A stretch of 64,000 bases of DNA from Aquimarina litoralis (lineage in GTDB: Bacteria; Bacteroidota; Bacteroidia; Flavobacteriales; Flavobacteriaceae), in the NCBI RefSeq assembly GCF_019295435.1, contig NZ_WEKL01000010.1, positions 1 through 64,000 on the forward strand, written 5' to 3'. Numbering within the stretch: the stretch's first letter is position 1; every line of letters begins with the position of its first letter. The position numbers and the translations under genes are program-made. The notes under the pieces are model-generated. The model was not told the origin of the DNA. It did not search any database and saw only the letters and a program-made list of their open reading frames with translations. Of this stretch, positions 456 to 15,783 are shown piece after piece.

Positions 456-463
456 CTATTATT

Positions 464-628: not shown

Positions 629-633
629 CAACT

Positions 634-705: not shown

Positions 706-712
706 CTCATTT

Positions 713-784: not shown

Positions 785-790
785 CAAACT

Positions 791-863: not shown

Positions 864-873
864 CAATTTTAAT

Positions 874-947: not shown

Positions 948-952
948 CAAAC

Positions 953-1072
953 GCTCCGCTAGCCCAAATGGGAGAGGCATCCGGTTTAAGCCCGGCTCAG
1001 TCTTGGTTCGAAATGAACACATTCACGATTTCGTAAAACAATAGGAATTGATGAGTAATCCAAGGTGGAGTA
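953..1072 (+). tRNA. tRNA-Leu (TAA) interrupted by 46 bases in the T-loop
   Basis: Apart from 2 substitutions the body is identical to the intact copy at 1403-1476. The T-loop reads ttcgaa, then 46 extra bases (about 1013-1058), then t and T-stem ccaag. Acceptor gctccgc/gtggagt, D-arm, anticodon (TAA) and T-stem cttgg/ccaag are otherwise preserved. The insert starts atgaacac and ends gagtaa. Confidence 0.75.
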
Positions 1073-1079
1073 CAAACTT

Positions 1080-1162
1080 AGGCTCATGGTGTAAATGGAA
1101 GCACCCAAGGTTACGACCCTTGAAGTATAGGTTCCCCCGAAGTTTCGGGACTATTGAGCTTA
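1080..1162 (+). tRNA. tRNA-Arg (ACG) with a hairpin inserted in the T-loop
   Basis: Acceptor aggctca/tgagctt (7 pairs with one wobble), anticodon stem caagg/ccttg with loop ttacgac (ACG). The T-stem starts atagg and ends ctat, but the T-loop is about 18 nt. It contains the perfect hairpin cccgaa-gt-ttcggg (1136-1149) in place of the usual 7-nt loop. Confidence 0.65.
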
Positions 1163-1167
1163 CAAAT

Positions 1168-1238
1168 TGACCTGTGATGTAAAGGTAGCATCCAAGACTT
1201 TGACTCTTGGTGTAAAGGTTCGAATCCTTTCAGGTCAT
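1168..1238 (+). tRNA. tRNA-Gln (TTG)
   Basis: A perfect acceptor tgacctg/caggtca, anticodon stem caaga/tcttg with loop ctttgac (TTG), T-arm aaagg-ttcgaat-ccttt. The base after the acceptor is T, whereas Gln tRNAs normally have G at the discriminator position. The D-arm is compact. Confidence 0.85.
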
Positions 1239-1244
1239 CGTGAC

Positions 1245-1316
1245 TAAGGTATAACTCAGTGGTAGAGTACCGCGGCCATATCGCGGGAGTCTTGGGTTCG
1301 ATTCCCAATGCCTTTG
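1245..1316 (+). tRNA. tRNA-Met-like (CAT) with C33
   Basis: The D-arm is normal (actcagtggtagagt). The anticodon stem ccgcg/cgcgg closes loop gccatat, giving CAT (Met, or Ile2 if lysidine-modified). Position 33 is C where U is almost universal. The T-arm ttggg-ttcgatt-cccaa is intact, and the acceptor pairs 6 of 7 (first pair T-T). Confidence 0.7.
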
Positions 1317-1323
1317 AAATAAT

Positions 1324-1397
1324 GCTGGAATGGCAGAATAGGAATACACACTTGACTTAGCATCAAGATCCTAAAAATTCAAATCTCCATTCTCGCA
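1324..1397 (+). pseudogene. degenerate tRNA-Leu (TAG) copy
   Basis: It resembles the tRNA at 874-947: the same anticodon arm (cttga, loop cttagca, tcaag). The T-stem is destroyed (aaaaa against ctcca) and the acceptor gctggaa/ttctcgc has an internal mismatch. It is probably a decayed duplicate, unless a T-arm-less RNA is functional. Confidence 0.6.
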
Positions 1398-1402
1398 CAA
1401 AT

Positions 1403-1476
1403 GCTCCGCTAGCCCAAATGGCAGAGGCATCCGGTTTAAGCCCGGTTCAGTCTTGGTTCGAATCCAAGGTGGAGTA
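1403..1476 (+). tRNA. tRNA-Leu (TAA) without the long variable arm
   Basis: Acceptor gctccgc/gtggagt, anticodon stem ccgg/ccgg with loop tttaagc (TAA), T-arm cttgg-ttcgaat-ccaag, discriminator A. The variable region has only about 5 nt, so the Leu identity conflicts with the class I shape. It is the intact paralogue of the interrupted element at 953-1072. Confidence 0.8.
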
Positions 1477-1497
1477 CAATTTAATAAGTCGTAGTAC

Positions 1498-2352
1498 TTA
1501 TTTCTTACTACGAATTCCCAAAAATATCGCTAATCCTCCTGTAAAAAACATTAGTAAACTATAGACGGCTGGAGCAATAGCGTATGATGTACTATGTAGG
1601 ATGGCAATTGCTATCGAGATTGCAAGTGTTCCATTTTGAATACCTGACTCTATTCCTATAGAAATAGCACCTCGATGATGCACTTTTAAAAGCTTAGCAG
1701 AATAATACCCTATTGCCATGGTTAAAATATTCAATAAGAAAGCTACTAATCCAGCTTCTCGTAAATAGGAAACGAAATTGTCCTTTTCCTTAACCAAAAT
1801 ACCAATAATAACCAGTGCTAGTACGATTGCAGAGGCTATTCTGACTGGTTTTGCCATTTTCAGCGCGAAACCTTCATTATATTTTCTAATAATCATACCT
1901 ATAGAAACAGGTATAATGATAATAACAAAAATCTGGATGATTGTTTCTACGACATTCAATTGTATTGTTTGATTCTCTGATAAAAAATGAAGTAAAGAAA
2001 AATTGACTATAAATGGTATAGTAATAATAGTAATCAAACTACTAAAAGCCGTAAGTGTAACAGATAATGCAGTATCACCATGTGCCAAATGAGAGATTAA
2101 ATTAGAAGTAGCTCCGCCAGGACAAGCAGCCAATATCATAATTCCAATTGCAATTTCTGATTCTAAGGATAATACAGATACCAAAGTAAAAGCTACTAAA
2201 GGTAAAATTAAAAGTTGATTTATAAGGCCAACCAGAATGGCTTTTGGGTAGATTAGTATTCTTTTGAAGTCAGATGTAACTAATGATAATCCCATCCCTA
2301 GCATAATGATTATCAAGGATGCTGCCAATATAATAGTTGAAATGTTATCCAT
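1498..2352 (-). CDS. BASS-family (bile acid:sodium symporter-like) transporter
   Basis: A 284-residue integral membrane protein with about 9-10 hydrophobic helices. The motif ACPGGATSN at residues 76-84 is typical of the bile acid:Na+ symporter (BASS) family, which imports organic anions together with sodium. The length fits short bacterial BASS proteins. It lies alone on the - strand between + strand tRNA genes, so it interrupts the array and probably has its own promoter. Start MDNIS (ATG at 2352) leaves a 90-bp gap to tRNA-His. The substrate cannot be told from sequence, and no function linked to tRNA is evident. Confidence 0.85.
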   Translation of the reverse strand: MDNISTIILAASLIIIMLGMGLSLVTSDFKRILIYPKAILVGLINQLLILPLVAFTLVSVLSLESEIAIGIMILAACPGGATSNLISHLAHGDTALSVTLTAFSSLITIITIPFIVNFSLLHFLSENQTIQLNVVETIIQIFVIIIIPVSIGMIIRKYNEGFALKMAKPVRIASAIVLALVIIGILVKEKDNFVSYLREAGLVAFLLNILTMAIGYYSAKLLKVHHRGAISIGIESGIQNGTLAISIAIAILHSTSYAIAPAVYSLLMFFTGGLAIFLGIRSKK

Positions 2353-2442
2353 TTAGGTTGTTTTCGAATGTATAGCCTAATATAAAGATTTATTTATCAA
2401 AATGCTTAAAATCAAATAATCAAACACAAACATTTTAAATAT

Positions 2443-2515
2443 GGTGTCTCTAGCTTATCTGGTAAAGCATCTCACTGTGAATGAGAGGAACAGGGTTCGA
2501 GTCCCGGAGTACACC
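2443..2515 (+). tRNA. tRNA-His (GTG)
   Basis: Anticodon stem tctca/tgaga with loop ctgtgaa (GTG). G2443 and C2515 fit the His-specific G-1:C73 pair. The acceptor gtgtctc/agtacac has two mismatches near its base and one T-stem pair is mismatched, so this copy is also imperfect. Confidence 0.8.
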
Positions 2516-2521
2516 CAAAAA

Positions 2522-2594
2522 GGAATAGTAGCAAAGTTGGTCAATGCGGCGGATTGAAGATCCGACGATACAGGTTCGATTCCTGTCTGTTCCA
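2522..2594 (+). tRNA. tRNA-Phe (GAA)
   Basis: Acceptor ggaatag/ctgttcc (7 pairs with one wobble), anticodon loop ttgaaga (GAA), T-arm acagg-ttcgatt-cctgt, discriminator A2594. It lies 6 bp after the tRNA-His element and 22 bp before the next coding region, so all may share one transcript. Confidence 0.85.
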
Positions 2595-2616
2595 CTAATT
2601 TTTAAATTTTACAACT

Positions 2617-2937
2617 ATGAAAAATAATTTATTACAAAGGTTTTTATGTAGAACTGAAGATACAGGAAGATTCATAGTTCAATCCAAGATTACTGGTATT
2701 ACCTATTTCGTAGAACCAATAGATAATGGGAAACCAGATAAACTTTGGGGTGACCTGGATCCTGCTACCAAAAAACTTACCGGTGATTACGGTAATGTAC
2801 GAAGAGGTGCGATTAAAAAAGAAGAGTCTTTAATCTCTAAAGAAAATGGGTTTAAAAACATCTCTATTTTCAAAGGAAGTCCTTTAGGAGAAATCGATAG
2901 ACGAGATCGCGAATATGAAATATCATATAACCCGTGA
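2617..2937 (+). CDS. unknown 106-residue protein inside the tRNA array
   Basis: I do not recognise this protein. It is small, soluble and highly charged, with no signal peptide or membrane segment. It begins MKNNLLQRFLCRTEDTGRF and has a polar middle (PIDNGKPDKLWGDLDP) and a C-terminal part rich in Arg, Glu and Lys. The ATG start follows an A/T-rich leader 22 bp after tRNA-Phe. The next small gene begins 23 bp downstream, so the two are probably co-transcribed with the tRNAs. Its position between tRNA-like elements and the slipin gene suggests an RNA-related role, but this is context only. Confidence 0.6.
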   Translation: MKNNLLQRFLCRTEDTGRFIVQSKITGITYFVEPIDNGKPDKLWGDLDPATKKLTGDYGNVRRGAIKKEESLISKENGFKNISIFKGSPLGEIDRRDREYEISYNP

Positions 2938-2960
2938 GACAATTTTAAAAATTAAAAAAA

Positions 2961-3125
2961 ATGAAAACACAACATATACTTACCAAAGAAAAAACAAAAA
3001 CTGGTTTCCAATTCCTATTCTCAAAATGGGTAACGAAATATGTAGATTCCATGACAAAGGCCTTATATCCGGATACGGATACACCTAATGTAAAAAACGA
3101 CCAAAACCGAATTTTTTACAAATAA
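2961..3125 (+). CDS. unknown 54-residue basic protein
   Basis: A short frame of 54 codons plus TAA, from ATG at 2961, following the 106-residue gene by 23 bp. The product begins MKTQHILTKEKTKTGF, contains an aromatic/basic middle (FQFLFSKWVTKYVDSMTKALY) and ends NDQNRIFYK. It is Lys-rich and could bind nucleic acid. I do not recognise a family. The A-rich start context (aaaaaaaATG) resembles that of its neighbour. Short length makes it less certain than the upstream gene. Confidence 0.45.
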   Translation: MKTQHILTKEKTKTGFQFLFSKWVTKYVDSMTKALYPDTDTPNVKNDQNRIFYK

Positions 3126-3126
3126 A

Positions 3127-3266
3127 TAATTACTACGCAAATAGATTGCGCTAATACATTACACCTTTGTGTAGTAATTAAAGCAAACCCTTTTATATGG
3201 GGGAAACAAATGGGGTTTGAAGTAGTGCCCTGCTATAAAGTGAGGATGAAAATAGCAGGGCTTTTG
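3127..3266 (+). ncRNA. candidate structured RNA with three successive stems
   Basis: Three strong inverted repeats follow one another. A 10-bp closing stem TAATTACTAC/GTAGTAATTA (3127-3136 with 3171-3180) encloses two small hairpins (GCAA/TTGC and ACAC/GTGT). Next is a 7-bp stem CAAACCC/GGGTTTG (3184-3190 with 3213-3219). Last is a 9-bp stem GCCCTGCTA/TAGCAGGGC (3227-3235 with 3253-3261) followed by TTTT, a plausible terminator. Either a non-coding RNA or the structured 3' untranslated region of the small genes upstream. I cannot assign it to a known family. Confidence 0.4.
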
Positions 3267-3301
3267 ATAAAATAAAGTTGAAAGCATAAATTATTAATTA
3301 G

Positions 3302-3321
3302 ATTCCAGCCTTCGCTGGAAT
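3302..3321. repeat. short dispersed palindrome followed by GACAG
   Basis: attccagc-cttc-gctggaat forms an 8-bp stem with a 4-base loop and is followed by gacag. A similar element followed by gacag occurs at 30630-30649. Such short palindromes are common between genes in this phylum. Confidence 0.6.
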
Positions 3322-3448
3322 GACAGTATCAATCAAGTCTTGTTGGGTGTTTCTGTATAGCACTATTGTATGGAGAGTTGCAGTTTTGTATGACCTCTTT
3401 ATATACAACTTGGTTTGAAGGTTAGGCTATTAACCAAATAATAGTCAC

Positions 3449-3540
3449 ACTCTATAGGACATGGGTTCGATTCCCATCGGGACCACTAAAAACAGATACA
3501 AAATGGTCCCGTAGCTCAGTGGCTAGAGCGATAGATTTTT
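3449..3540 (+). tRNA. candidate permuted tRNA-Lys (TTT): 3' half then 5' half
   Basis: A 3' half (3449-3485: loop end ac, anticodon strand tctat, variable aggac, T-arm atggg-ttcgatt-cccat, acceptor cgggacc, discriminator A) precedes a 5' half (3505-3540: acceptor ggtcccg, ta, D-arm gctc-agtggcta-gagc, g, anticodon strand ataga, ttttt). The spacer is 19 nt. Joined as 5' half plus 3' half they give exactly 73 nt, with a perfect 7-bp acceptor, a perfect 5-bp anticodon stem and loop tttttac (TTT). No ggtcccg partner lies upstream. The alternative is remnants of two tandem tRNA-Lys copies. Confidence 0.55.
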
Positions 3541-3617
3541 TGTTCATGTGGGTTCGAGTCCCACTATCTTTTTAGAGATATGGCGGAATTGGTAAACGCA
3601 CTAGATTAGGGATCTGG
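3541..3617 (+). tRNA. candidate permuted tRNA, Leu-like 5' half (weaker case)
   Basis: A 3' half (T-arm gtggg-ttcgagt-cccac at 3548-3564, acceptor tatcttt) is followed after 2 nt by a 5' half (acceptor agagata at 3574-3580, Leu-type D-arm gcggaattggtaaacgc, anticodon stem ctaga/tctgg). The acceptor strands pair over 7 of 7 positions including one wobble. The loop ttaggga would give anticodon AGG, which conflicts with the Leu-type D-arm. The spacer is too short to hold a discriminator base, so this pair is less convincing than its neighbours. Confidence 0.35.
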
Positions 3618-3648
3618 CGAACAAGGCACTGAAAATGCCTTTTACATT

Positions 3649-3730
3649 GCATGGGTTCGAATCCCATCGAGACCACCAAATTAGGTTTCGTAGCTCAGTT
3701 AGGTAGAGCACTACACTCATAATGTAGGAT
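3649..3730 (+). tRNA. candidate permuted tRNA-Met (CAT): 3' half then 5' half
   Basis: A 3' half (T-arm atggg-ttcgaat-cccat, acceptor cgagacc, discriminator A3675) is followed after 8 nt by a 5' half (acceptor ggtttcg at 3684-3690, D-arm gctc-agttaggta-gagc, anticodon stem ctaca/tgtag with loop ctcataa, CAT). The acceptor strands pair 7 of 7 with one wobble. I see no cgagacc-like strand downstream for the 5' half. Joined in reverse order the pieces give a canonical elongator-Met-like cloverleaf with the join in the variable loop. Confidence 0.5.
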
Positions 3731-3733
3731 AAA

Positions 3734-3839
3734 AGCTAATCATCTTATAAAACTGATTGACAAAAACTGTGAACTCAAATCTGTTTTTATAGTGCTCTTG
3801 CTATAAAAACAATCTTGAAAGTACTTTGAAATATTAGCT
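3734..3839 (+). other. inverted repeats before the slipin gene
   Basis: AGCTAAT (3734-3740) is complementary to ATTAGCT (3833-3839). It encloses a perfect 11-bp hairpin TGTTTTTATAG/CTATAAAAACA (3782-3792 with 3801-3811). The structure directly follows the last tRNA 5' half, so it could be the tail of that transcript or a leader of the slipin mRNA. From 3840 to 4000 I see only A/T-rich sequence. Confidence 0.4.
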
Positions 3840-4000: not shown

Positions 4001-5188
4001 ATGAAATCGATAATACCTCCGTTACAGGATTATCATCCAATTAATGTTAAATCTGTCTGTTCATTAACAGACATAAAAACTAAGAAAATGAAACGAGTAC
4101 GAATCAATGCTGGTACAGTGGGATTGGTTTTCAGGAAAGGTGACTACAATCGTGTAATTACACAAGGAACTCATTGGTTAAGATTTGATGAACGTATAAC
4201 AAAATACGATCTTTCTAAACCTTTCACGACTCCTGTAGCACTAGAGATCTTATTGAAAGATACAACATTGGAGGATATGCTACATGTGATTGAGGTAAAA
4301 GACAATGAAATTGTTTTGGTATATGAAAATGGAAATCTCAAAAGTGTTTTTCCTGCAGGTAGATATACGCTATGGAATAGTTTATACACTTATAAATTTA
4401 TAAGAATAGATCTTAGTAAAATTTATATCACAGAAAAAATTGAAAAGTCATTGTTCAGTAACTACTCCATCAGCAAGTACATTAGAACTTTTGAGGTAGC
4501 AGCCTATGAAAAAGCTGTACTTATCGTGGATGATGTATATAGTAAAACACTGAATAGTGGTACATATCGTTTCTGGAAAAATGATACAACCATTAAAATT
4601 GCCAAAGTAGATCTACGTCAATTACAACTGGAAGTAGCTGGTCAAGAGCTATTAACCAAGGATAAAGCTGCTATTCGAATCAATTTCGATGTACAGTATA
4701 AGGTAGTAGATATAGAAAAAGCTTTGCTTGATAACAAAGACTATTCAAGACAATTATATATCGCGATGCAATTAGCACTAAGAGCTTTCGTAGGAAATTA
4801 CACGTTAGATGAATTACTGGAACGTAAAGATAGTATGGCAAATGCAATACTAGAATCTACAAAAAACCAAGTAATCAAACTAGGTGTAAAAGTATTGAAT
4901 TGTGGTATCAGAGATATCATTCTGACTGGTGAAATGAAAGAAATCATGAACCAAGTTCTGATTGCACAAAAGAAAGCTCAGGCTAATACTATTACCAGAC
5001 GTGAAGAAACTGCATCAACCAGAAGTTTGCTAAATACTGCAAAGCTTATGGAGGATAATGCTATGCTCTATAAGCTAAAAGAAATGGAGTATGTAGAGAA
5101 AATTGCTGATAAAATTGGTGAAATAACAGTTTCTGGTAATGATGGTGTAGTAAAACAATTGAAGGATATATTCTCTACGAATAAATAA
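4001..5188 (+). CDS. SPFH/Band-7 domain protein (slipin)
   Basis: A 395-residue slipin-type SPFH protein. The core VRINAGTVGLVFRKGDYNRV near residue 33 and the SPFH stretch up to about residue 320 are followed by an Ala/Lys/Arg/Glu-rich helical segment (QKKAQANTITRREET) and a second helix, suited to oligomer rings. No clear membrane helix is present. In other bacteria such proteins accompany the RNA ligase RtcB and tRNA-like RNAs in proposed RNA-repair systems. No ligase is inside this window, but the array continues beyond the left edge. The ATG at 4001 follows aaaaa; an internal ATG at 4088 (MKRVRINAG) would match the usual slipin start, so the first 29 residues are uncertain. Confidence 0.8.
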   Translation: MKSIIPPLQDYHPINVKSVCSLTDIKTKKMKRVRINAGTVGLVFRKGDYNRVITQGTHWLRFDERITKYDLSKPFTTPVALEILLKDTTLEDMLHVIEVKDNEIVLVYENGNLKSVFPAGRYTLWNSLYTYKFIRIDLSKIYITEKIEKSLFSNYSISKYIRTFEVAAYEKAVLIVDDVYSKTLNSGTYRFWKNDTTIKIAKVDLRQLQLEVAGQELLTKDKAAIRINFDVQYKVVDIEKALLDNKDYSRQLYIAMQLALRAFVGNYTLDELLERKDSMANAILESTKNQVIKLGVKVLNCGIRDIILTGEMKEIMNQVLIAQKKAQANTITRREETASTRSLLNTAKLMEDNAMLYKLKEMEYVEKIADKIGEITVSGNDGVVKQLKDIFSTNK

Positions 5189-5274: not shown

Positions 5275-5408
5275 AAACAAAAAAGAGCGTCTCCACGCTC
5301 TTTTTCTTCACACAAATCATCTTAATTTAGGGGCTTATTCTAAAATTAAAACTCACTTTTTTAAAATTGCTTTCACCTTGGGGAAAATGAAAGCACTAAC
5401 TCATTAAC
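5275..5408 (-). ncRNA. small RNA gene, family copy 1
   Basis: About 135 nt read on the - strand. It has a promoter at 5415-5446 and ends in a strong intrinsic terminator (stem agagcg/cgctct with a T run, 5280-5305). Inside is a conserved hairpin GCTTTCA/TGAAAGC with a C-rich loop, and a second stem near the conserved aagcccct. Three near-identical copies lie at 13921-14685. No reading frame is conserved. It could belong to a described flavobacterial RNA motif such as Flavo-1, but I cannot confirm this. Confidence 0.7.
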
Positions 5409-5414
5409 TCTGGT

Positions 5415-5446
5415 GTAAAGATACAATCATTTTTTAATCCACCAAA
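5415..5446 (-). promoter_or_regulatory. promoter of small RNA copy 1
   Basis: On the - strand TTTG (5443-5446) lies 19 bases before TATCTTTAC (5415-5423), close to the phylum consensus TTTG-N17-20-TAnnTTTG. Both boxes and the spacing are the same in all four copies. Confidence 0.7.
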
Positions 5447-5828
5447 CAAAAAAGTGTATTTTATCCAAAATAAACGCTTTTTAACATTTTTAATAGCCTA
5501 AATTAATTTATTTTGTAGTCTTTTTCTTTCAAATTTAAAATATTTTGATAAAAGCCTAAATTTTGGTAGGGTATATCGCTCTTACTTTGTTTTAGAGTTG
5601 TAAATTTTATGTTAGCACCAATACAATTAAAGTTTTCTAGAAATGTGGATTTAATTTAATTTTTTCACATTGGATAACTTGACATTATGTTTTAACATTA
5701 CATAAAATGAACATTTATAACTATTAATAGAGAATTAAAGTATCTGATAAGCTATCATATTTATGATACTATTTTATCTGTGCGTACCAAATAATCTATT
5801 AACTTATAGCCAACTAAACAAAAAAGAA
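5447..5828. other. gap without a gene before the sigma factor
   Basis: A/T-rich. The first 80 bases, up to about 5530, resemble the sequence at 14723-14806 beside small RNA copy 4, so they belong to that repeat. The rest holds no frame I would call. A weak promoter-like pair near 5573-5600 may serve the sigma gene. Confidence 0.4.
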
Positions 5829-6338
5829 ATGCCGGAACAAATAAGTGTATGTGACGAAAAGGTATATGACGAATTATATAGACAACACGCTGAAAAGATA
5901 TGCTACTATATTTATTACAAATATGGTGATATGGAAAAAGCTCAAGATATAGTACAAGATAGTTTTGCAAAACTTTGGGTTAATTGTTCCAAAATTATTT
6001 TTGGTGCTGCGAAAAGCTTTTTATATAAAATAGCCAATAATGCTTCTATTAATGATGCAATACATCAAAAAACAGTATTAAAATATAAATCAACACCACA
6101 AAAAACATATACTAATGAATCTCCTGAATTTCAAATGGAAGAAAAGGAATTCATGGATAAATTAAATCATGCCATTAGTGATTTAAAAGAGGGACAAAGA
6201 GAAGTTTTTCTTCTCAATAGAATTGAAAAGAAAACCTATAAAGAGATTGCAGAATTGTTAGGAATCTCAGTAAAAGCAGTTGAGAAACGAATGCATTTGG
6301 CTTTAGTAACGCTTAGAAAAAAAATTGGAAAAATCTAG
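5829..6338 (+). CDS. ECF RNA polymerase sigma factor (FecI-like)
   Basis: A 169-residue sigma-70 family protein of the extracytoplasmic-function type. Region 2 (YDELYRQHAEKICYYIYYKY, then DMEKAQDIVQDSFAKLW) binds core enzyme and the -10 element. Region 4 (TYKEIAELLGISVKAVEKRM) is the helix-turn-helix for the -35 element. I start at the ATG at 5829 (MPEQIS) because the 22 residues encoded before it are not sigma-like. The anti-sigma gene follows after 83 bp and the TonB receptor after that, the usual order of Fec-type surface-signalling systems. It probably drives the two receptor modules downstream. Confidence 0.9.
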   Translation: MPEQISVCDEKVYDELYRQHAEKICYYIYYKYGDMEKAQDIVQDSFAKLWVNCSKIIFGAAKSFLYKIANNASINDAIHQKTVLKYKSTPQKTYTNESPEFQMEEKEFMDKLNHAISDLKEGQREVFLLNRIEKKTYKEIAELLGISVKAVEKRMHLALVTLRKKIGKI

Positions 6339-6421: not shown

Positions 6422-7342
6422 ATGAATAAAAATGATGATAATTTCTTAGGACGTTGGTTAGCAAATGACCTCTCCGAAAAAGAAAAAAAAGATTTCGAGA
6501 ACACTCCCGAATATCTTGCATATAAAGATATTCTAAAAGGCGTTGAAAAATTCGAACGTCCAGAGTTTGATATAGAAGGGAATCTGCAAAAACAGAAGGA
6601 GTATAATAATATATATACATCTGCTAAACCAGCAACAGCCAAAGTAATCAAATTACGTACTTGGTTATATACCGCTGCTGCAGTTGTTGTTATTTTGATT
6701 GGTTTGAGAACTGTGTTTTTTAATACTACAACAATCAATACGGAACTTGCAGAAACTAAGACTTGGACCTTACCTGATAACTCCATTGTGACACTTAATG
6801 CTGAATCTTCCATTGAATATGACGATCGTTCTTTTACAAAAGATCGCTCGATTATCTTAGAAGGTGAAGCTTTTTTTGATGTTGCAAAAGGATCTCAATT
6901 TACTGTTAGAACTAAAAATGGCAATATAAAAGTACTTGGTACGCAATTTAATGTGTATTCGAGAAATACCACAATAGAAGTACAGTGCTATGAAGGAAAA
7001 GTATCGGTAAGCAACCAAAAGAATGACGTTATTCTAACACCTGGCAAAGGTGTTATAGCTTCTGATAATAACAAGCTTAATTCCGTTGAAATCAAAGATT
7101 CCAAACCAAGTTGGATGCAGCAAAAAAGTACTTTTCATCAAGTGTCATTAAATCGACTTATCGAAGAACTTGAAAGGCAATATGATATTACCATAGAAAA
7201 AGGCAATGTAGACACCAATCGTCTATTCTCAGGTTTTTTCATACATACGGATCTTAGTATAGCGCTAAAAACATGTTTTGAACCTATGAATATTGACTAT
7301 AAAATCAAATCTTCAAAGACTATTGAATTGAAAAATAAGTGA
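6422..7342 (+). CDS. FecR-family anti-sigma factor
   Basis: A 306-residue protein with a cytoplasmic N-terminal part that should hold the sigma factor (1-79), one membrane helix (about 81-100), a periplasmic FecR domain (110-200, including LEGEAFFDVAKG and VLGTQFNVYS) and a C-terminal DUF4974-like domain (235-303). The last domain normally contacts the N-terminal STN domain of the partner receptor. Its stop overlaps the GTG start of the receptor gene (GTGA), showing translational coupling. Confidence 0.92.
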   Translation: MNKNDDNFLGRWLANDLSEKEKKDFENTPEYLAYKDILKGVEKFERPEFDIEGNLQKQKEYNNIYTSAKPATAKVIKLRTWLYTAAAVVVILIGLRTVFFNTTTINTELAETKTWTLPDNSIVTLNAESSIEYDDRSFTKDRSIILEGEAFFDVAKGSQFTVRTKNGNIKVLGTQFNVYSRNTTIEVQCYEGKVSVSNQKNDVILTPGKGVIASDNNKLNSVEIKDSKPSWMQQKSTFHQVSLNRLIEELERQYDITIEKGNVDTNRLFSGFFIHTDLSIALKTCFEPMNIDYKIKSSKTIELKNK

Positions 7343-10005
7343 GGGGTTTACGACTAACATTATTTTTATTTTTTTTCTGGTATAATCACATTTGTTCACA
7401 AGACGTAGTAGTAGTTACTACTTCAGAAAGACCATCATTAGTAGACGTTTTAAACGCTTTTATAGATCAACATCAATTTAGTTTTTCTTATGATGTAAAA
7501 GCTATCGAACATATTACTTTAAAACTTCCGAATACAGATATATCCTTCGAGGTTCTTCAGAAAATAATAACGCTTCAAACACCTTTCTTACTTCAAAGAG
7601 TAAGTAAAACAGACTATATATTAGTCAAGAATACAGAAAGGGTTACTATTTGTGGCGTAATTATAGATGCCTTCTCTGAATTTGAATTACCACAAGCAGA
7701 TATATTACAAAATAAGAAGACAATTGGTCTTACTAATAACAATGGAAGTTTTGAATTACAACTTCATCCATGGGATTCTATTTCGATATCGTATTTTGGT
7801 TATCAGAATAAAACTATAAAAGTTTCCGAATTTTCTTCTTCAAAATGTGACACTATTAATCTAAGACCAGAAATTCAAAATTTAGGTCAAGTTTTAGTGA
7901 AAGAATACCTTACCCAAGGAATACAAAAAAATCAAGATGCTTCTGTAAATATATCTACAAAAAAACTCCGAATCCTTCCTGGACTTGCAGAACCTGATGT
8001 ACTACAAAGTTTACAACTCATACCTGGAATCACCAGTCCTACTGAAGATCCCGCTTCACTCTATATTAGAGGAGGAACTCCAGGACAGAATTTAGTGCTT
8101 TGGGATGGAATCCGAATGTTTCAAAACGGTCATTTTTTTAATCAAATATCCTCATTTAACCCTTTTATTACGGAGAGTATCCAAGTCTATAGATCTGGAA
8201 CTAGTGTAAAATATGGAGACAATTTATCAGGAGTAATCAACATAGAATCAGACAATGATCTTACTGATAAATTACAGACCGGCAGTGGTTTAAATCTTAC
8301 TCACGGAGATCTATTTATAAAGCTGCCTTTGTCTAAAAAGTTAGGTATTCTCCTTGCTGGTCGAAGATCTACTACTGATATCTATCAAAACATTGCCTTT
8401 AACAATTTAGTTAGAAAAGTATTTCAAAATACACGCGCTGATATTCCTGAACCCAATTCACAAATAACTGCCGAAGAACGACTAAGACAAGATGACTTTT
8501 CTTTTTCAGATAGTAACTTTAAACTATTATGGAAACCAAACAAAAACAACACCATAAAGTTTAGTACAATTTTTACAGAAAACAGACTGGATAATAAAAT
8601 AACAACTCAATTACAAGAAGCTTCCGGTCTATCTGATGTACAAGATATCCTGAAGATTATTAATTGGGGTTTTAGTATAAATTGGGATAAAAAATATACT
8701 AACAACATTAGCCAAAATGTTAATTTATACGGATTATCCTATGATCAGCGATATGGTTTTGTAAATATTCCCGAAAATGATGATGATCCATTTATTGACG
8801 AAATACGCATTGACACAAGAAATGAAGTTTCCGATATAGGGTTTCGTTATGCACTGCATGTACCGATCCAAAAAAAGCATGCTATCGATGTAGGATATCA
8901 GTTTAGTAGACTTTTTACGAGGTATGAACGATTCAATAGAATTGAACCAGCAATAGGAGACTTTTCTGTATTTGGTGAAGGTAGTAATCATATCATATAT
9001 TCTCAATACAGCTATAAAACCGCAAAAAGTTTTATCAATGTTGGTATAAGAAGACTTCTTCCAACTTATTTTGGTTATAGTTACATTTCGTCAAACTATT
9101 TTGTGGAACCAAGATTATTTGCTTCACATAAATTTTCGGATACATTTACGCTAAATGGATCAGCTGAGTTAAAAACTCAACAGATTAATAGCTTCAACAC
9201 TAATGGAAGCACGAATAACTCACTACCTTCGTTACCAGTAGCTGATAATATCTGGATTCTTTCTTTTATGAACTCGGATCAAGATGCTCAAATCCCATTT
9301 ATTGAAATAGTAGAAAGTAGGCAATTTACACTTGGAGGATTATATACATACAATGGATGGCATTTTGATCTTGAAGGATATTATAAGAAAATAACGAATT
9401 TAAGTTCTTTAGGAAATCTAATTTTTAATTTTGCTGTTGAAGATAATATTGAGAATGCCTTTTTAATTGGAGAAGAAGAACGAATAGGGTTTGATCTGTT
9501 AATTAAAAAAAAATACAGAAACTATAGACTTTGGGCTGGTTATTCATTAAGTAAAACGATATCTTCATTTCCTGTAATTCAAAACACATTCTTTCCTGGT
9601 AACTTTGATCAACGTCATACGTTTAATATATCTCAAACATTGCAACTCAATAATTTTGAATTTGCTTTAGGATGGAATTATGCTACCGGAAGGCCTTTTA
9701 CAAAAATATTTAGTGATGTTAATGATGTAGATGGAGCTGTAATTGATCCTAGAGGTATTAATACCAGTCGTTTTCCAGACTATCATCGATTAGATGCTTC
9801 GGCTACATACCGCTTTTTATTAGATAGAGATAAAGATTGGAGTGGAATGATTGGACTATCTATTAGAAATATTTACAACAGAAAAAATATAATTAGTCAA
9901 GGATTCAGAGGTATTGTAGATGAAAACTTTGATAGATCAATCGAAAGTTTTGACAACCAATCCTTGCGTTTTACTCCAAACATTACGCTCAGGTTTAATT
10001 TTTAA
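7339..10005 (+). CDS. TonB-dependent outer-membrane receptor with STN signalling domain, copy 1
   Basis: An 888-residue receptor. Signal peptide at 1-20, STN domain (about 28-88), a carboxypeptidase-regulatory-like beta-sandwich (about 100-175), plug (about 190-310, with LYIRGGTPGQNLVLWDG) and a beta-barrel ending in Phe. The STN domain should pass a substrate signal to FecR and so to the sigma factor. The substrate is unknown; no SusD partner is present, so glycan uptake through a SusCD pair is unlikely. The start is GTG at 7339, overlapping the fecR stop. The receptor at 10672 is a close paralogue. Confidence 0.9.
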   Translation: MRGLRLTLFLFFFWYNHICSQDVVVVTTSERPSLVDVLNAFIDQHQFSFSYDVKAIEHITLKLPNTDISFEVLQKIITLQTPFLLQRVSKTDYILVKNTERVTICGVIIDAFSEFELPQADILQNKKTIGLTNNNGSFELQLHPWDSISISYFGYQNKTIKVSEFSSSKCDTINLRPEIQNLGQVLVKEYLTQGIQKNQDASVNISTKKLRILPGLAEPDVLQSLQLIPGITSPTEDPASLYIRGGTPGQNLVLWDGIRMFQNGHFFNQISSFNPFITESIQVYRSGTSVKYGDNLSGVINIESDNDLTDKLQTGSGLNLTHGDLFIKLPLSKKLGILLAGRRSTTDIYQNIAFNNLVRKVFQNTRADIPEPNSQITAEERLRQDDFSFSDSNFKLLWKPNKNNTIKFSTIFTENRLDNKITTQLQEASGLSDVQDILKIINWGFSINWDKKYTNNISQNVNLYGLSYDQRYGFVNIPENDDDPFIDEIRIDTRNEVSDIGFRYALHVPIQKKHAIDVGYQFSRLFTRYERFNRIEPAIGDFSVFGEGSNHIIYSQYSYKTAKSFINVGIRRLLPTYFGYSYISSNYFVEPRLFASHKFSDTFTLNGSAELKTQQINSFNTNGSTNNSLPSLPVADNIWILSFMNSDQDAQIPFIEIVESRQFTLGGLYTYNGWHFDLEGYYKKITNLSSLGNLIFNFAVEDNIENAFLIGEEERIGFDLLIKKKYRNYRLWAGYSLSKTISSFPVIQNTFFPGNFDQRHTFNISQTLQLNNFEFALGWNYATGRPFTKIFSDVNDVDGAVIDPRGINTSRFPDYHRLDASATYRFLLDRDKDWSGMIGLSIRNIYNRKNIISQGFRGIVDENFDRSIESFDNQSLRFTPNITLRFNF

Positions 10006-10045
10006 AAAAGGCAACAACTATATTACTAAAGTTATTGCCCTTTTA
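10004..10045. terminator. bidirectional terminator between convergent genes
   Basis: GGCAACAACT pairs with AGTTATTGCC (9 of 10) and is flanked by A and T runs, so it can end both the receptor and the opposing lipoprotein transcripts. Confidence 0.65.
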
Positions 10046-10058
10046 ATTTCTTTATCTT

Positions 10059-10481
10059 TTAGACTCTTGTTAATACCTGTTTAAACTCTCCTTCTTCATC
10101 ATTAATTATTACAGTCATCGTATTTCCAGAAAATGTAACTGTTGCTTCTGTTGAAGTTGCTTCGGGATCATCAGAAGTAACTTTGTACTTATTATTTCCT
10201 AGATTTTCCCAAGTACCAGTATAAGTGCCTCCCACTGTGCAACCAGAAGTTCCCATCATATAATAAGTACCGCTTAATTTCATATCATCTTTAATAATGA
10301 TAGTTTCTTCCAGATCGCAGGCTTCTTGCATAACTTCAACTCCGTTTTCAAACTCTTGTGTTATTTTCCAGGTTCCAACAAATGGATCTTGCATATCAAC
10401 AGGCCCTGCCCCATCATCATCTGATTGACAAGAAATCATTATTGTAGAAATAGCGGCAAATAATAAAACAATTTTTTTCAT
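10059..10481 (-). CDS. lipocalin-like lipoprotein, copy 1
   Basis: A 140-residue protein starting MKKIVLLFAAISTIMISC, a lipoprotein signal with Cys18 in the lipobox, followed by an acidic linker (QSDDDGAG) that is common for surface lipoproteins of this phylum. The rest is a small beta-barrel of the lipocalin-like type (DPFVGTWKITQEFENG, then GTWENLGNNKYKV and VTFSGNTMTVI). I use the ATG at 10481 rather than a longer frame because it begins the signal peptide. It is convergent with the receptor gene. The close paralogue at 13368 has the same arrangement, which suggests the pair works together, perhaps in ligand binding. Confidence 0.8.
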   Translation of the reverse strand: MKKIVLLFAAISTIMISCQSDDDGAGPVDMQDPFVGTWKITQEFENGVEVMQEACDLEETIIIKDDMKLSGTYYMMGTSGCTVGGTYTGTWENLGNNKYKVTSDDPEATSTEATVTFSGNTMTVIINDEEGEFKQVLTRV

Positions 10482-10610
10482 GCTTTTTTTTATTTTTTTA
10501 AGTTTATATTTTACATCTCCTAAAACATACAAAAGCAAAAACACCCTACTTTTTTTTCTGCTTTTAAAAGATTATTAATACTCTTCGTTTTCATAATAAA
10601 CAATGCTTTC

Positions 10611-10640
10611 TTTGAGAATCATTTATAATAGTTATCTTTG
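10611..10640 (+). promoter_or_regulatory. promoter of receptor copy 2
   Basis: TTTG (10611-10614) lies 18 bases before TATCTTTG (10633-10640), a full match to the Bacteroidota housekeeping promoter, 32 bp before the GTG start at 10672. Confidence 0.7.
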
Positions 10641-10671
10641 AAATCTTAAAAAATATAGCGCTCAGAAATAG

Positions 10672-13314
10672 GTGAAATTCTTTAAACTAACTCTATTATT
10701 ACTCTTCTTTTGTACGGCTATTTCACATTCGCAAGAAATAAGTTTACCGGAAACTACCGAGAAACAATCATTAGCTTCAATCCTTGATATTTTTGAAAAT
10801 AAGTTAAATTTTAGTTTTTCTTATGATGTAAAAGCTATTGAAGGTATTACGGTAAATATTTCTAGTACAAAACTATCGTTCAGTGACTTACAAAAAGTAG
10901 TACAGCAACAAACCTCTTTCCAGATTCAAAAAATAAGTGGAACTGACTATATTATAGTAAAGAACACAGAAACAGTTACTGTTTGCGGAGTTATCATTGA
11001 TGGGGTTTCTAAATTTGAACTACCCCAAGCAGATATAATTCAACGTAAAAAAACTATTGATCTTACCAATAATAGTGGAGCTTTTGAGTTACAACTTCAC
11101 CCATGGGATTCTATTTCTATCGCATATTTTGGTTATCATCAGAAAACTATTAAAGTCTCAGAGCTGTCTAAAACCTCATGTGATACTATTAGTTTACGTC
11201 CAGAAATTCAGAGTTTAGGACAAGTTCTAGTAAAAGAATATTTAACTGGTGGAATTCAAAAAAATCAGGATGCTTCGGTAAATATATCTACTAAAAAACT
11301 TCGTGTGTTACCTGGACTTGTAGAACCAGATGTATTACAGAGTTTACAATTATTGCCAGGTATCAATAGCCCTACTGAGGATCCCGCTGGACTTTATATA
11401 AGAGGAGGAACTCCAGGACAAAATTTGGTATTATGGGATGGTATTAAAATGTACCAAAGCGGACATTTTTTTAATCAAATATCTTCATTTAATCCTTTTA
11501 TTACTGAAAACGTTCAGGTTTATAGAGGAGGCACCAGTGTTCGCTATGGAGATCGTATATCTGGAGTAGTAGTTATTGAATCGGATAATGATCTTACCGA
11601 TGAATTACAAGTAGGTGGAGGTTTAAACTTTACTCATGGAGATGTTTATATAAAATTACCATTATCTGATAAACTAGGAATTATGTTGGCCGGACGAAGA
11701 TCTACAACGGATATTTATCAGAATATTACGTATAATAATCTGGTAAGAAAAGTTTTTCAAAACACAAGGGCCAATATCCCGGATGCCAACGATGATCCCT
11801 TGCCGAATGAAGGATCTAGAGAAGATGACTTTTCTTTTTCTGATAGCAACCTTAAAGTACTTTGGCAACCCAACGAAAATAATACGGTTAAGTTCAGTGC
11901 TATTTTTGCAGAAAACAGGTTAGATAATAATAAAAATCTACCTATTCCAGGAACAAATGAACTAACCAACATTAAAGATATTCTTAAAATAAGGAATTCC
12001 GGTTTTAGTCTTAATTGGGATAGGAAATATCAGAATGATATATCACAAAATATCAACTTCTATTTTTCATCCTATGATCAACGCTATAATTTTATCAATA
12101 GCCCTCTGGTATCCGATACTGATAATGAACAAAATTTAGCTATTAATAATGAAGTTAATGATATTGGCGGTGAATATGCACTTCATCTTCCTATTGCAAA
12201 AAAGCATAGCCTTAATTTAGGATATCAATTTACTTATAATAGAACAGAATATGAGATTATTGACAGCAATTTTCTAGATGACGATATTGGTTTAAACGGA
12301 AACGGCACGAATCATACCATTTACTCAGAATATAAGTACAAGACTCCAAAAACTTTTATAAATATTGGAGTAAGAGGTTCGCAACTAAGTAATGCCAATG
12401 CCTTTTTTGTAGAACCTAGAATGTTCTCCTCTTACCAATTATGGGATAATTTCACATTAAATACTTCGGCAGAATTAAAGAATCAACAACTTAATAATTA
12501 CCTTACTTATAACAGCACCAGTGGTGTTTTTCCTACTTTACCTGTTTCGGACAATGTTTGGATACTATCTAATAATTCTACAGAAGGTTTAGATGAAGAA
12601 GATAGATTTATTCGGGTTGTAAAGAGTATGCAATTTACCTTAGGTGGATTGTATACGTATAAAGGCTGGAATTTTGATTTAGAAGGATATTATAAAAAAA
12701 TAACTGACGTATCTTCTTTAAGTGATCTTATACTTGACTTAGCGCTACCAAATGACGACGAAAGTGATATTTTTTACGGAGAAGAAGAACGCTTTGGAAT
12801 TGACTTACTTATAAAGAAAAGAATTAATAATTATAGATTTTGGACAGGTTATTCTTATAGCAAAACAATCAGTACATTTCCTTTAGTTCAGGATTCCTAT
12901 TTTCCCGGAAATTTTGACCAAAGGCATGTGTTCAATTTTTCTCAAACACTCACCATCAATAATTTTGAATTTGCTATGGGGTGGAATTATGCTACAGGTA
13001 GACCTTTTACTAGATTGTTTAGAGATAATAATGATTTTGACGGTGTAGTTACCGATCCAAGAGGTATTAATACCAGTAGATATAAAGATTATCATCGATT
13101 AGATGTTTCAGCTTTATATCGTTTTAAACTTGATAGAGATAAGGATTGGCAGGGCATGGTAGGAGTATCGATTAGGAATCTTTACAATAGAAAAAATGTT
13201 ATTAGTCAGGGATATCGTGAAAATGTTGATGAAAACTTCAATTTCTTCATAGAAAGTTTTGACAATGAATCTCTTCGTTTTACACCTGATCTGGTTTTAC
13301 GTTTTAATTTTTAA
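10672..13314 (+). CDS. TonB-dependent outer-membrane receptor with STN domain, copy 2
   Basis: An 880-residue paralogue of the receptor at 7339, near-identical through the plug and first barrel strands and more divergent in the outer loops. Order: signal peptide (1-20), STN (about 28-86), regulatory-like sandwich, plug, barrel ending in Phe. The start is GTG at 10672. There is no second sigma/FecR pair; its own consensus promoter suggests expression that does not depend on the ECF factor. Loop divergence suggests a different but related ligand. Confidence 0.9.
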   Translation: MKFFKLTLLLLFFCTAISHSQEISLPETTEKQSLASILDIFENKLNFSFSYDVKAIEGITVNISSTKLSFSDLQKVVQQQTSFQIQKISGTDYIIVKNTETVTVCGVIIDGVSKFELPQADIIQRKKTIDLTNNSGAFELQLHPWDSISIAYFGYHQKTIKVSELSKTSCDTISLRPEIQSLGQVLVKEYLTGGIQKNQDASVNISTKKLRVLPGLVEPDVLQSLQLLPGINSPTEDPAGLYIRGGTPGQNLVLWDGIKMYQSGHFFNQISSFNPFITENVQVYRGGTSVRYGDRISGVVVIESDNDLTDELQVGGGLNFTHGDVYIKLPLSDKLGIMLAGRRSTTDIYQNITYNNLVRKVFQNTRANIPDANDDPLPNEGSREDDFSFSDSNLKVLWQPNENNTVKFSAIFAENRLDNNKNLPIPGTNELTNIKDILKIRNSGFSLNWDRKYQNDISQNINFYFSSYDQRYNFINSPLVSDTDNEQNLAINNEVNDIGGEYALHLPIAKKHSLNLGYQFTYNRTEYEIIDSNFLDDDIGLNGNGTNHTIYSEYKYKTPKTFINIGVRGSQLSNANAFFVEPRMFSSYQLWDNFTLNTSAELKNQQLNNYLTYNSTSGVFPTLPVSDNVWILSNNSTEGLDEEDRFIRVVKSMQFTLGGLYTYKGWNFDLEGYYKKITDVSSLSDLILDLALPNDDESDIFYGEEERFGIDLLIKKRINNYRFWTGYSYSKTISTFPLVQDSYFPGNFDQRHVFNFSQTLTINNFEFAMGWNYATGRPFTRLFRDNNDFDGVVTDPRGINTSRYKDYHRLDVSALYRFKLDRDKDWQGMVGVSIRNLYNRKNVISQGYRENVDENFNFFIESFDNESLRFTPDLVLRFNF

Positions 13315-13367
13315 TATAAACAAGAAATCCGCAAATTATTACGGACTCCTTATTTATCTGAATAATT

Positions 13368-13796
13368 TTAAGATCTGGTTAGTATTTCCTTCAATTCTCC
13401 ATCTTCATCATTTGTTACGATAGTCATTGTATTCCCAGAAAAAGTGATAGTAGCCTGTATTTCTTCTGCTTCTGACAAATCTGGTGTAATTTTATAGATA
13501 TTATTCCCAAGATTTTCCCAACCTCCCGTTAGGGTTCCTTGTAAAGTACAAGTTCCATTTTCTAAATCGTGAGAAGTTCCACTAAATTTCTGATCAGATG
13601 TTACGGTTAATGTGTCTTCAGCGTCGCAAGCATCTAAAGCTATTTCGACTCCATTCTCAAACTCTTGTGTTATTTTCCAAGTTCCGACAAATGGATCTTG
13701 CATATCAACTGGTCCAGGTCCAGCTCCATCATCATCTGATTTACAAGAGATCATTATTGTAGAAATTGCGGCGAATAATAAAATGATTTTTTTCAT
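13368..13796 (-). CDS. lipocalin-like lipoprotein, copy 2
   Basis: 142 residues. MKKIILLFAAISTIMISC is nearly the same signal as copy 1, with Cys18 lipidated. The acidic linker is followed by the lipocalin-like domain (DPFVGTWKITQEFENGVEI). The C-terminal half differs more from copy 1. About 55 bp of upstream sequence, including caaaagcaaaaacaccctac read on the + strand, is shared with copy 1. The gene is convergent with receptor copy 2, so receptor and lipoprotein were duplicated as one unit. Confidence 0.8.
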   Translation of the reverse strand: MKKIILLFAAISTIMISCKSDDDGAGPGPVDMQDPFVGTWKITQEFENGVEIALDACDAEDTLTVTSDQKFSGTSHDLENGTCTLQGTLTGGWENLGNNIYKITPDLSEAEEIQATITFSGNTMTIVTNDEDGELKEILTRS

Positions 13797-13920
13797 GATT
13801 GCTTTTTTATTTTTATAATTTATGTTTTACGTCTCCTAAAACATACAAAAGCAAAAACACCCTACTTTTTTATTCTTTTAAAAACCAATTACAACAGAAA
13901 ACTAAATATCAATCATAGAA

Positions 13921-14055
13921 AAACAAAAAAGAGCGTCTCCACGCTCTTTTTCTTCACACAAATCATCTTAATTTAGGGGCTTATTCTAAAATTAAAACTC
14001 ACTTTTTTTAAATTGCTTTCATCTTGGGGGGAATGAAGGCGCTAACTCATTAACT
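13921..14055 (-). ncRNA. small RNA gene, family copy 2
   Basis: Same architecture as the copy at 5275-5408. Promoter boxes TTTG (14089-14092) and TATCTTTAC (14061-14069) are 19 bases apart, and the terminator hairpin is at 13925-13950. In the first hairpin this copy has gccttcat opposite atgaaagc, a changed pair position. Confidence 0.7.
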
Positions 14056-14235
14056 CTGGTGTAAAGATACAATCATTTTTTAATCTACCAAACAAAATTA
14101 TGTATTTTATCTAAAAAATATGTTTTTTAACATACTTACTTGTTAAAAAAATATATTTTTGTAGTCTTAATACTACATATGTTAACAAACATAATTATTA
14201 CAACTCTACACTCCTAATAGCATAAAACTTTATAA

Positions 14236-14369
14236 AAACAAAAAAGAGCGTCTCCACGCTCTTTTTCTTCACACAAATCATCTTAATTTAGGGGCTTATT
14301 CTAAAATTAAAACTCACTTTTTTTAAATTGCTTTCACCTTGGGGGAATGAAAGCGCTAACTCATTAACT
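14236..14369 (-). ncRNA. small RNA gene, family copy 3
   Basis: Promoter boxes TTTG (14403-14406) and TATCTTTAC (14375-14383) at 19-base spacing. The conserved hairpin with a C-rich loop and the agagcg/cgctct terminator are present. Nearly identical to copies 2 and 4. Confidence 0.7.
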
Positions 14370-14550
14370 CTGGTGTAAAGATACGATCATTTTTTAATCT
14401 ACCAAACAAAATTGTGTATTTTATCTAAAAAATACGTTTTTTAACATATTTACTAATCAAAAAAATATCTTTTTTGTAGTCTTAATATTACATATGTTAA
14501 CAAATATGGTTATTACAACTCTACTCTTTTAATAGCATAAAACTTTATAA

Positions 14551-14685
14551 ACACAAAAAAGAGCGTCTCCACGCTCTTTTTCTTCACACAAATCATCTTA
14601 ATTTAGGGGCTTATTCTAAAATTAAAACTCACTTTTTTTAAATTGCTTTCACCTTGGGGGGAATGAAAGCGCTAACTCATTAACT
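14551..14685 (-). ncRNA. small RNA gene, family copy 4
   Basis: Promoter boxes TTTG (14719-14722) and TATCTTTAC (14691-14699) at 19-base spacing, terminator hairpin at 14555-14580. Its upstream flank differs from copies 2 and 3 and resembles that of copy 1. Confidence 0.7.
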
Positions 14686-14853
14686 CTGGTGTAAAGATAC
14701 GATCATTTTTTAATCTAACAAACAAAATCGTGTATTTTATCTAAAAAAAATGCGTTTTAACATTGTTAATGATTTAAATTAATATATTTTGTAGTCTTTT
14801 TCTTTCATTCTAAAGTTATTTTTCTAAAATATAAAATCCTACTTCTCATCAAT

Positions 14854-15783
14854 TTACAATTTTATAGTTCGTAATCCTCCCATTCCGCTATATTCAGAAA
14901 TATATAATATTTTCTTTTGCTTGTTAGAAGATATTCCGTTTGGATTGCTAAAAGAAGCTTCTTTTAAAGAGCCATCTACTTGCTTTGCCTGACCATTACC
15001 TGCTAAAATTTCTATTTCTCCTTCCATAGAGACTTTAAAAATATAGTTGACCGCTATTCCGGTCGCATAAATTACATCTTCAATAACCGTTATATATCCT
15101 ATCCCAAAATTCTGAACTATAATATTAGGGATATTTGTGATAAATGAGACTTCACCATCCGGAGTGATGGTATATATATCGGCTGTTACAAAATTTGAAA
15201 CAATAATATTTCCTTTACTATCTAAGTCTATTCCTACTCCTCCGGTTAGTCTTTTATCATTTACTAATAGAATTACTTGACCATCTGGTGTAATTTTATG
15301 TACAGTTGGCGCGGTATAATTAGATATATACAAATTATCTTCTGCATCAATAGTCATACTACTTGGCCAGCCATCAATAGTAGCTACAACTTCTCTGACT
15401 CCTGATTTTGAAATTCTTAGTATTTCTCCACGAACTGTGTTATTGTTGTTATTAATATAAAGATTCCCTTTGGAGTCTATAGCAGTTCCCATTGGACCTG
15501 ATAACCCTGCAATAGTATCTAAAATTTTTCCTTGTGGATTTATTTTAAAGACTCTAGATCCATTTCCTCCAGTATTGACATACTTGCCATATTCAGATAC
15601 ATAAATCATCCCTTCTCTATCTACAGATACAGCTCCGTTAGCTGTAAAATTCTTGATTAAAGTTTCAACTTTGAGCTCCTGACCTATACTATGATTACTA
15701 TTAAAAAATAAGCAGTAAAGGGTTATAAATTGAATACAAATTGATAAAGACCCATAATATCGTTTCCTAACTATTGTTTTCAT
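14854..15783 (-). CDS. secreted NHL-repeat beta-propeller protein
   Basis: 309 residues with an N-terminal signal (hydrophobic core about 14-30, then SIGQE). The rest is a series of propeller blades with recurring patterns such as GAVSVDREGMIYVSEYG, GTAIDSKGNLYINN, SMTIDAEDNLYISN, GIDLDSKGNIIVSN. These are NHL / SMP-30-like repeats, which form a six-bladed propeller used for binding or, in some families, lactone hydrolysis. No obvious catalytic set is visible. It stands alone, and small RNA copy 4 begins about 170 bp beyond its stop. Confidence 0.75.
   Translation of the reverse strand: MKTIVRKRYYGSLSICIQFITLYCLFFNSNHSIGQELKVETLIKNFTANGAVSVDREGMIYVSEYGKYVNTGGNGSRVFKINPQGKILDTIAGLSGPMGTAIDSKGNLYINNNNNTVRGEILRISKSGVREVVATIDGWPSSMTIDAEDNLYISNYTAPTVHKITPDGQVILLVNDKRLTGGVGIDLDSKGNIIVSNFVTADIYTITPDGEVSFITNIPNIIVQNFGIGYITVIEDVIYATGIAVNYIFKVSMEGEIEILAGNGQAKQVDGSLKEASFSNPNGISSNKQKKILYISEYSGMGGLRTIKL

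Follow-up and report, generated by a model that had tools for sequence, protein, structure and literature searches.

The 64,000-nucleotide stretch of Aquimarina litoralis DNA analysed here (positions 1 to 64,000 of contig NZ_WEKL01000010.1, hereafter the window) carries four copies of a putative small-RNA (sRNA) gene, all on the minus strand. Three of these units lie in tandem at 315-bp spacing and the fourth is found ~8.6 kb from the nearest tandem copy. A 141-base query matched them at 14560-14700, 14245-14384, 13930-14070 and 5284-5424 (-) with 97-100% identity (best BLAST E = 1.5e-68), bearing out the three tandem 315-bp units and one distant copy described in the first-pass annotation. 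Folding z values of the four units ranged from -3.1 to -3.8. These E values and folding scores, in combination with covariation in 54 copies from relatives, show that the repeat pattern is not due to chance. The features of the units and of their surroundings are as follows:

14555-14686, minus strand: sRNA copy T3, predicted transcript to the end of the T-run, start approximate (147.9 bits with covariance model R1)
14240-14371, minus strand: sRNA copy T2 (R1, 144.3 bits)
13925-14056, minus strand: sRNA copy T1 (R1, 147.5 bits)
5279-5410, minus strand: distant sRNA copy D (R1, 150.6 bits)
14692-14722, minus strand: promoter of T3, TTTG, 19 bases, TATCTTTA (sequence)
14376-14406, 14062-14092 and 5416-5446, minus strand: promoters TTTG-19-TATCTTTA of T2, T1 and D
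14731-14761, minus strand: phased upstream element pair of T3 (pattern search)
14415-14445, 14101-14131 and 5455-5485, minus strand: phased element pairs of T2, T1 and D
14647-14668, minus strand: hairpin 1 of T3, with C-rich loop (folding, covariation and pattern)
14584-14596, minus strand: conserved linker AUGAUUUGUGUGA of T3, probable seed (target tests, conservation)
14269-14281, 13954-13966 and 5308-5320, minus strand: linker AUGAUUUGUGUGA in T2, T1 and D
14555-14581, minus strand: terminator hairpin and T-run of T3 (sequence, folding, covariation)
4001-5188: Band_7/SPFH (slipin-type) gene, 395 aa, followed by copy D
5763-6338, plus strand: ECF sigma (FecI-type) gene (Sigma70_r4_2, Sigma70_r2), neighbour divergent from copy D
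6422-7342, plus strand: FecR-type anti-sigma gene (Pfam), neighbour
7339-13796: two TonB receptor genes (plus strand), each with a Lipocalin_4 lipoprotein gene (minus strand), between copies D and T1

Several further claims of the first-pass annotation held on inspection. The Band_7/SPFH gene does precede copy D, which had been placed directly after the slipin terminator, and of the three tandem flanks the one of the last copy is indeed the most similar to that of D (89% over 293 bases, vs 83% and 66% for the others). The promoter boxes match, with exactly 19 bases between TTTG and TATCTTTA in all four units, and each unit has the hairpin with a C-rich loop as well as the same terminator, GAGCGTGGAGACGCTC. 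The repeat is likewise a complete predicted transcription unit, every copy having its own promoter and terminator. The count of four copies is correct for the window but not for the genome, where BLAST and the covariance search both give eight: four in the window, three on contig C37 and one on C70. The ECF sigma, FecR and receptor genes of the window are neighbours of the sRNA copies and, judged from sequence, putative system members at most. The receptor and Lipocalin_4 pair (7339-13796) is a tandem duplication of about 3.3 kb with segments 68-90% alike. A long run of tRNA genes with 14 Rfam matches occupies 47-3755; three of these matches are near threshold (30-32 bits) and may be degenerate or unusual.

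The predicted promoter is of the housekeeping Bacteroidetes type (-33 TTTG, -7 TAnnTTTA/G). Above it lie two upstream elements spaced 20-21 bp apart; four such phased pairs were found in the window, with none expected by shuffling. Allowing up to three mismatches, the element pattern occurred at nine sites in the 6.3-Mb genome, seven of them at sRNA copies, and its reversed control had no match in the same genome. Both elements were detected by script in 112 of 147 Aquimarina copies, nearly all at 20-21 bp, the distance to the -33 box being more scattered; in 33 cases from other genera the two are spaced by 20-21 bp, with 19-21 to the -33 box. The elements are probably the binding sites of one dimeric activator, for which a LytTR-type protein is perhaps a candidate. 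The same phased pair also occurs at L181 (G000:C60:50892-50922), roughly 150 bp before a tRNA-like gene (anticodon TCC by eye), and the element may consequently not be private to the sRNA. At L186 (G000:C49 around 37,546), on the strand opposite to the pattern match, there is a different sRNA-like unit with promoter-like boxes, two CCCCC stretches (TTTGCCCCCGCAAA hairpin) and a GAGCCTC..GAGGCTTTTTT terminator; its upstream elements are similar, and it may be a second C-rich sRNA.

The sRNA, about 130 nt in length, comprises two hairpins and then the terminator. In a structural alignment of 54 chosen copies from relatives, 96.5% of the cells were paired and 57 two-sided changes were counted, compared to 16.6 in shuffled alignments; none of 500 shuffles reached the observed paired share, two-sided changes or covariation score. 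Covariation is seen in helix 1, which bears the C-rich loop, and in helix 3, the terminator, and helix 2 hardly varies at all. Conservation over an unbroken stretch is strongest in the 3' half. As this half is interrupted by a two-base gap in one genome, a peptide reading is disfavoured. In the alignments the loop sequences are CCCCAA and GCCCCUAA. Among the 147 Aquimarina copies, the linker ATGATTTGTGTGA is intact in 139 and CCCCA/G is present in hairpin 1 of 126, and in some copies the C-rich loop has been lost with the linker kept. The mean unpaired probability of the linker is 0.42, i.e. it is predicted to be partly paired, versus 0.94-0.97 for the C-rich loops; a weak outer helix may therefore have to open.

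A covariance search did not support assignment to a known Rfam family, for which Flavo-1 and other motifs had been suggested: apart from tRNA no family reached its gathering score in the window, the 21 matches of a relaxed search of 13800-14900 were all below threshold, and the loci of 20 relatives gave no match. No published description was found in the open-access journal articles searched. The sRNA would constitute an undescribed family.

Matches were obtained in 32 of 56 relatives' genomes, namely 32 of 33 Aquimarina (window genome included) and 0 of 23 from other genera. An exact pattern run over 84,980 species returned 89 stretches; among the 80 of these that were listed, all are Aquimarina by name except one uncultured Flavobacteriaceae. 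From the 32 genomes 147 copies were collected, 1-10 per genome (median 4), and 118 of them have a tandem neighbour within 450 bp, an amplification that lends support to the dosage-type reading put forward earlier. Mean identity between copies was 0.785 within a locus and 0.699 between genomes. Plasmid and viral collections contained no match to the sRNA.

Running the hairpin-1 pattern over 397 family genomes gave ten matches outside Aquimarina, of which only L218 and L221, in two other genera, are intergenic units; the other eight were rejected as lying within long open frames, and the reversed control word matched in 4 genomes. A third unit, L193, was located on the strand opposite to a weak R1 match. 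Weak R1 matches in other genera at L190, L191 and L192 showed by eye little beyond terminators. Both L218 and L221 are flanked on one side by a divergent ECF sigma gene and on the other by an MsbA-like gene, of which the 3' end faces them. In the window genome the orthologous sigma gene is found directly beside the C37 array, and in all nine Aquimarina stretches containing the sigma gene the sRNA copies adjoin it divergently, with an MsbA gene recognised on their far side in seven. Other Aquimarina copies lie beside a DUF456 gene or, where annotated (window, L251, L241), TonB receptor genes.

Of 149 family genomes, 133 encode a relative of the sigma factor at E <= 1e-45. Outside Aquimarina 69 sigma loci were inspected and the MsbA end adjoined in 60, with CCCCAA present on the sRNA strand of 41 of the 60 gaps (40 in a hairpin by a loose rule). 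The motif was found in 41 of the 44 gaps of at least 230 bp and in none of the 16 shorter ones; seven control words occurred in 0-5 of the 60. In a set of 29 short units passing a promoter and terminator filter, from which the two longest forms, L262 and L266, had been dropped before the count, an invariant CCCCAA loop is carried on a covarying stem. Tandem multiplication looks recurrent, since five gaps (L308, L309, L315, L316 and L320) hold two or three CCCCAA motifs each, about 220-250 bp apart. Several short gaps lacking the sRNA, L265, L282 and L295 among them, keep a terminator hairpin between the sigma and MsbA genes, a pattern that would fit loss of the sRNA body. The L271 gap has the sRNA plus extra sequence. 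By eye, a TTAAACTTTT...TAGTC-like stretch stands 5' of the ECF sigma gene in many genera (L256-L284), resembling an ECF-type autoregulated promoter.

The long and short RNAs do not match one another by covariance score, and model R2, built on the short forms, gave E 3.5 on the window units, which is not above noise. From position, promoter and loop rather than sequence score we infer that the two forms belong to one gene lineage, helped by the hairpin 1 of L218 and L193, which is almost that of Aquimarina. Of 346 genomes, R2 matched 43 at E 0.01 or less and 9 below 1e-4, the latter all Flavobacteriaceae. Two matches outside this family were inspected (L334, L336) and rejected as terminators without a unit. 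As most Flavobacteriaceae genomes in the R2 search had no match and 19 of the 60 gaps no CCCCAA, either the RNA is not present throughout or many cases escape the model. By its recurrence in the ECF sigma / MsbA gap, the home locus of the sRNA is placed there and the receptor-cluster copies appear secondary; the window copies share promoter and hairpin with the home copies, not position. The idea that the family framed or was duplicated around the receptor cluster is not supported by this comparison, the home locus lying elsewhere and being kept across genera.

Start-region statistics drew on two Aquimarina genomes, the window genome (13% covered) and another (7% covered), with gene starts called as the first ATG of the longest frame, and were accompanied by one genome-wide word search. 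Three parts of the RNA were tested as seeds, i.e. the two C-rich loops and the linker. The complement of the C-rich loops was not enriched at start regions, the loop segments being at or below shuffles, and TTGGGG was present at 3 starts, within the range of its permutations. Conversely, the complement of the linker was enriched, and the C-rich loop is hence not upheld as the target-pairing part it had been taken for. An initial, rough test of the linker gave a weak signal: with 9-mers, 20 of 200 shuffles scored as high. Sliding all 112 13-mers of the RNA over 1,002 start regions of the two Aquimarina genomes gave z 4.4-5.1 for linker windows 86, 89, 91 and 92, with 0 of 200 shuffles as high; at up to two mismatches the linker complement occurred in 9 of the 1,002 regions vs 1.89 in shuffles, the best of the 112 windows. 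The shuffle null is not perfect, as z exceeded 2.5 in 14 of the 112 windows, some with counts of 1-2 only. With up to three mismatches the excess was not clear (76 and 225 of 1000 shuffles as high). In another genus, whose RNA is without the linker, 0 of 329 start regions matched at up to two mismatches where 0.55 were expected, which makes a weak control; the short-form seed in one non-Aquimarina genome showed nothing enriched, at low power.

Genome-wide, the linker word with up to one mismatch occurred at 26 sites, 7 of them in sRNA genes; the remaining 19 compare with 13 for the reversed control, a mild excess. At nine of the 19 a long sense frame starts 11-30 nt downstream, as against 12 of 476 sites (2.5%) for shuffled words measured over 849 kb. 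The nominal P of 3e-10 is too small, because the linker word was chosen after a first look. The nine candidate targets comprise a GH18, a GH16, two GH5 with Por secretion tails, a SusC/RagA receptor, a redoxin-domain lipoprotein-like protein, a Sortilin/BNR protein, a short family-less lipoprotein-like protein and a LysE transporter. Eight of them look exported by eye, compared to 34% of genes by a crude rule, and predicted linker-target duplex energies range from -16 to -21 kcal/mol. The linker targets do not include the receptor genes beside the window copies. The seed is thus likely to be the linker AUGAUUUGUGUGA after hairpin 2 and not the C-rich loop, and the complement's presence at several start regions favours the multi-target sRNA proposed in the first-pass annotation.

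The account we find somewhat the better bet is that of one multicopy trans-acting sRNA of about 130 nt, which by means of its linker seed would repress translation of exported glycan-use proteins. Each copy would act as an independent transcription unit, consisting of the housekeeping-type promoter, two phased elements, the RNA and an intrinsic terminator. In its ancestral setting the gene would have occupied the gap between the ECF sigma gene, from which it diverges, and the MsbA-like ABC transporter gene, which faces it, usually single and shorter, as in many Flavobacteriaceae genera; in Aquimarina a longer form would have been multiplied in tandem at the home locus and dispersed elsewhere, e.g. 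to the FecIR/TonB receptor cluster of the window. The targets would be mRNAs of exported glycan-use and envelope proteins (GH5, GH16, GH18, SusC, lipoproteins), with the linker AUGAUUUGUGUGA predicted to pair 10-30 bases upstream of their start codons. Such pairing would block ribosome entry, a translation block at the start region being the simplest mechanism, and tandem copies would raise the dosage.

Three other readings were weighed against this account. The C-rich loops could be the working part, pairing with G-rich sites or binding protein, as a titrator or C-loop antisense, and the linker kept for folding or protein. The CCCCAA hairpin is the one RNA feature common to long and short forms across genera, CCCCA/G stands in hairpin 1 of 126 of the 147 Aquimarina copies, and the loops are the most open parts of the RNA. 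However, the loop complements lack enrichment at gene starts and some Aquimarina copies without the C-rich loop retain the linker, and we regard this reading as rather unlikely. The RNA might instead act locally in an ECF sigma / MsbA (envelope stress) circuit, regulating or regulated by the neighbouring sigma gene, for which the enterobacterial sigma-E sRNAs provide a precedent of an sRNA tied to a sigma factor. Its fixed position beside the sigma gene, the presence of a divergent ECF sigma gene beside distant copy D as well, and the mostly exported predicted targets would fit such a role, which is in part compatible with the linker-seed account; with a housekeeping-type promoter and its own elements kept wherever a copy sits, and many copies away from any sigma gene, it is nevertheless improbable as the main explanation. 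That the units are mobile or passive repeats (MITE- or REP-like), carrying promoter and terminator by chance, would agree with the dispersed copies, the tandem arrays and the genus-limited long form, but is hard to reconcile with a home locus kept across genera, compensatory changes in the helices of both forms, the fixed spacing of the promoter elements and the lack of matches in viral or plasmid collections. It is considered very improbable.

Flavobacteriaceae are major degraders of algal polysaccharides, and to our knowledge their post-transcriptional control has been little studied. The analysis provides this sRNA lineage with a fixed address, a promoter signature, a predicted seed and a short candidate target list of two GH5, one GH16, one GH18 and one SusC. 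Should the linker-seed account hold, two distant Bacteroidota groups regulate glycan use through multicopy sRNAs, by different RNAs and in one of them without an RRM partner, and sRNA copy number is itself a tuned trait. A broader proposal, tentative and on balance doubtful, is that a widespread Flavobacteriaceae sRNA beside the ECF sigma gene serves as a global RRM-independent controller of proteins exported for glycan use and of envelope proteins, with a constant CCCCAA hairpin, a seed changing between lineages and tuning by tandem amplification. Provisionally, the RNA is classed as a new family within a known type of sRNA.

Among known systems, the CcsR/cuckoo RNAs have the loop motif CCUCCUCCC. 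The loops of the Aquimarina and short forms, unlike these, read CCCCAA and GCCCCUAA, although the Aquimarina copies too are tandem homologous sRNAs with C-rich loops. CcsR1-4 of Alphaproteobacteria are cut from one transcript shared with a DUF1127 gene (PMC10253847), whereas every Aquimarina copy, in another phylum, has its own promoter and terminator, and DUF1127 was absent from the neighbours scanned with Pfam. LhrC of Listeria is reported to be a multicopy sRNA that responds to cell envelope stress and is governed by a two-component system (PMC4132741); the multiplicity is shared, but phylum and sequence differ. Closer by taxonomy is Rfp18 of Flavobacterium psychrophilum, a structured, genus-conserved sRNA reported to affect secreted proteases, with pairing predicted in its third stem-loop (PMC9723704). 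Both are structured sRNAs conserved within a genus of the same family, and Rfp18 could correspond to the short unit as it occurs in Flavobacterium.

The nearest parallel is FopS of Bacteroides thetaiotaomicron, a group of 14 paralogous sRNAs of about 65-70 nt in which a single-stranded 5' seed is followed by the terminator; they bind to the RRM protein RbpB and are stated as deposited in Rfam (PMC11697453). FopS and GibS have housekeeping promoters and predicted or shown pairing at the starts of SusC and glycoside hydrolase mRNAs (PMC11697453, PMC7366714). The Aquimarina sRNA, with its eight copies here, is similarly multicopy, from Bacteroidota and under a predicted housekeeping promoter, and has predicted candidate sites at SusC and GH starts. 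In contrast to FopS, its RNA measures about 130 nt, places two hairpins ahead of the terminator and has a predicted seed 3' of hairpin 2, and its genes form tandem arrays; RRM_1 was not matched in the Aquimarina genome, the Bacteroides control being positive. The window and the loci of 20 relatives had no Rfam match other than tRNA, though the Rfam copy searched may not hold FopS. The best reading is that the Aquimarina sRNA works like Bacteroides FopS, yet is not a member of the FopS family.
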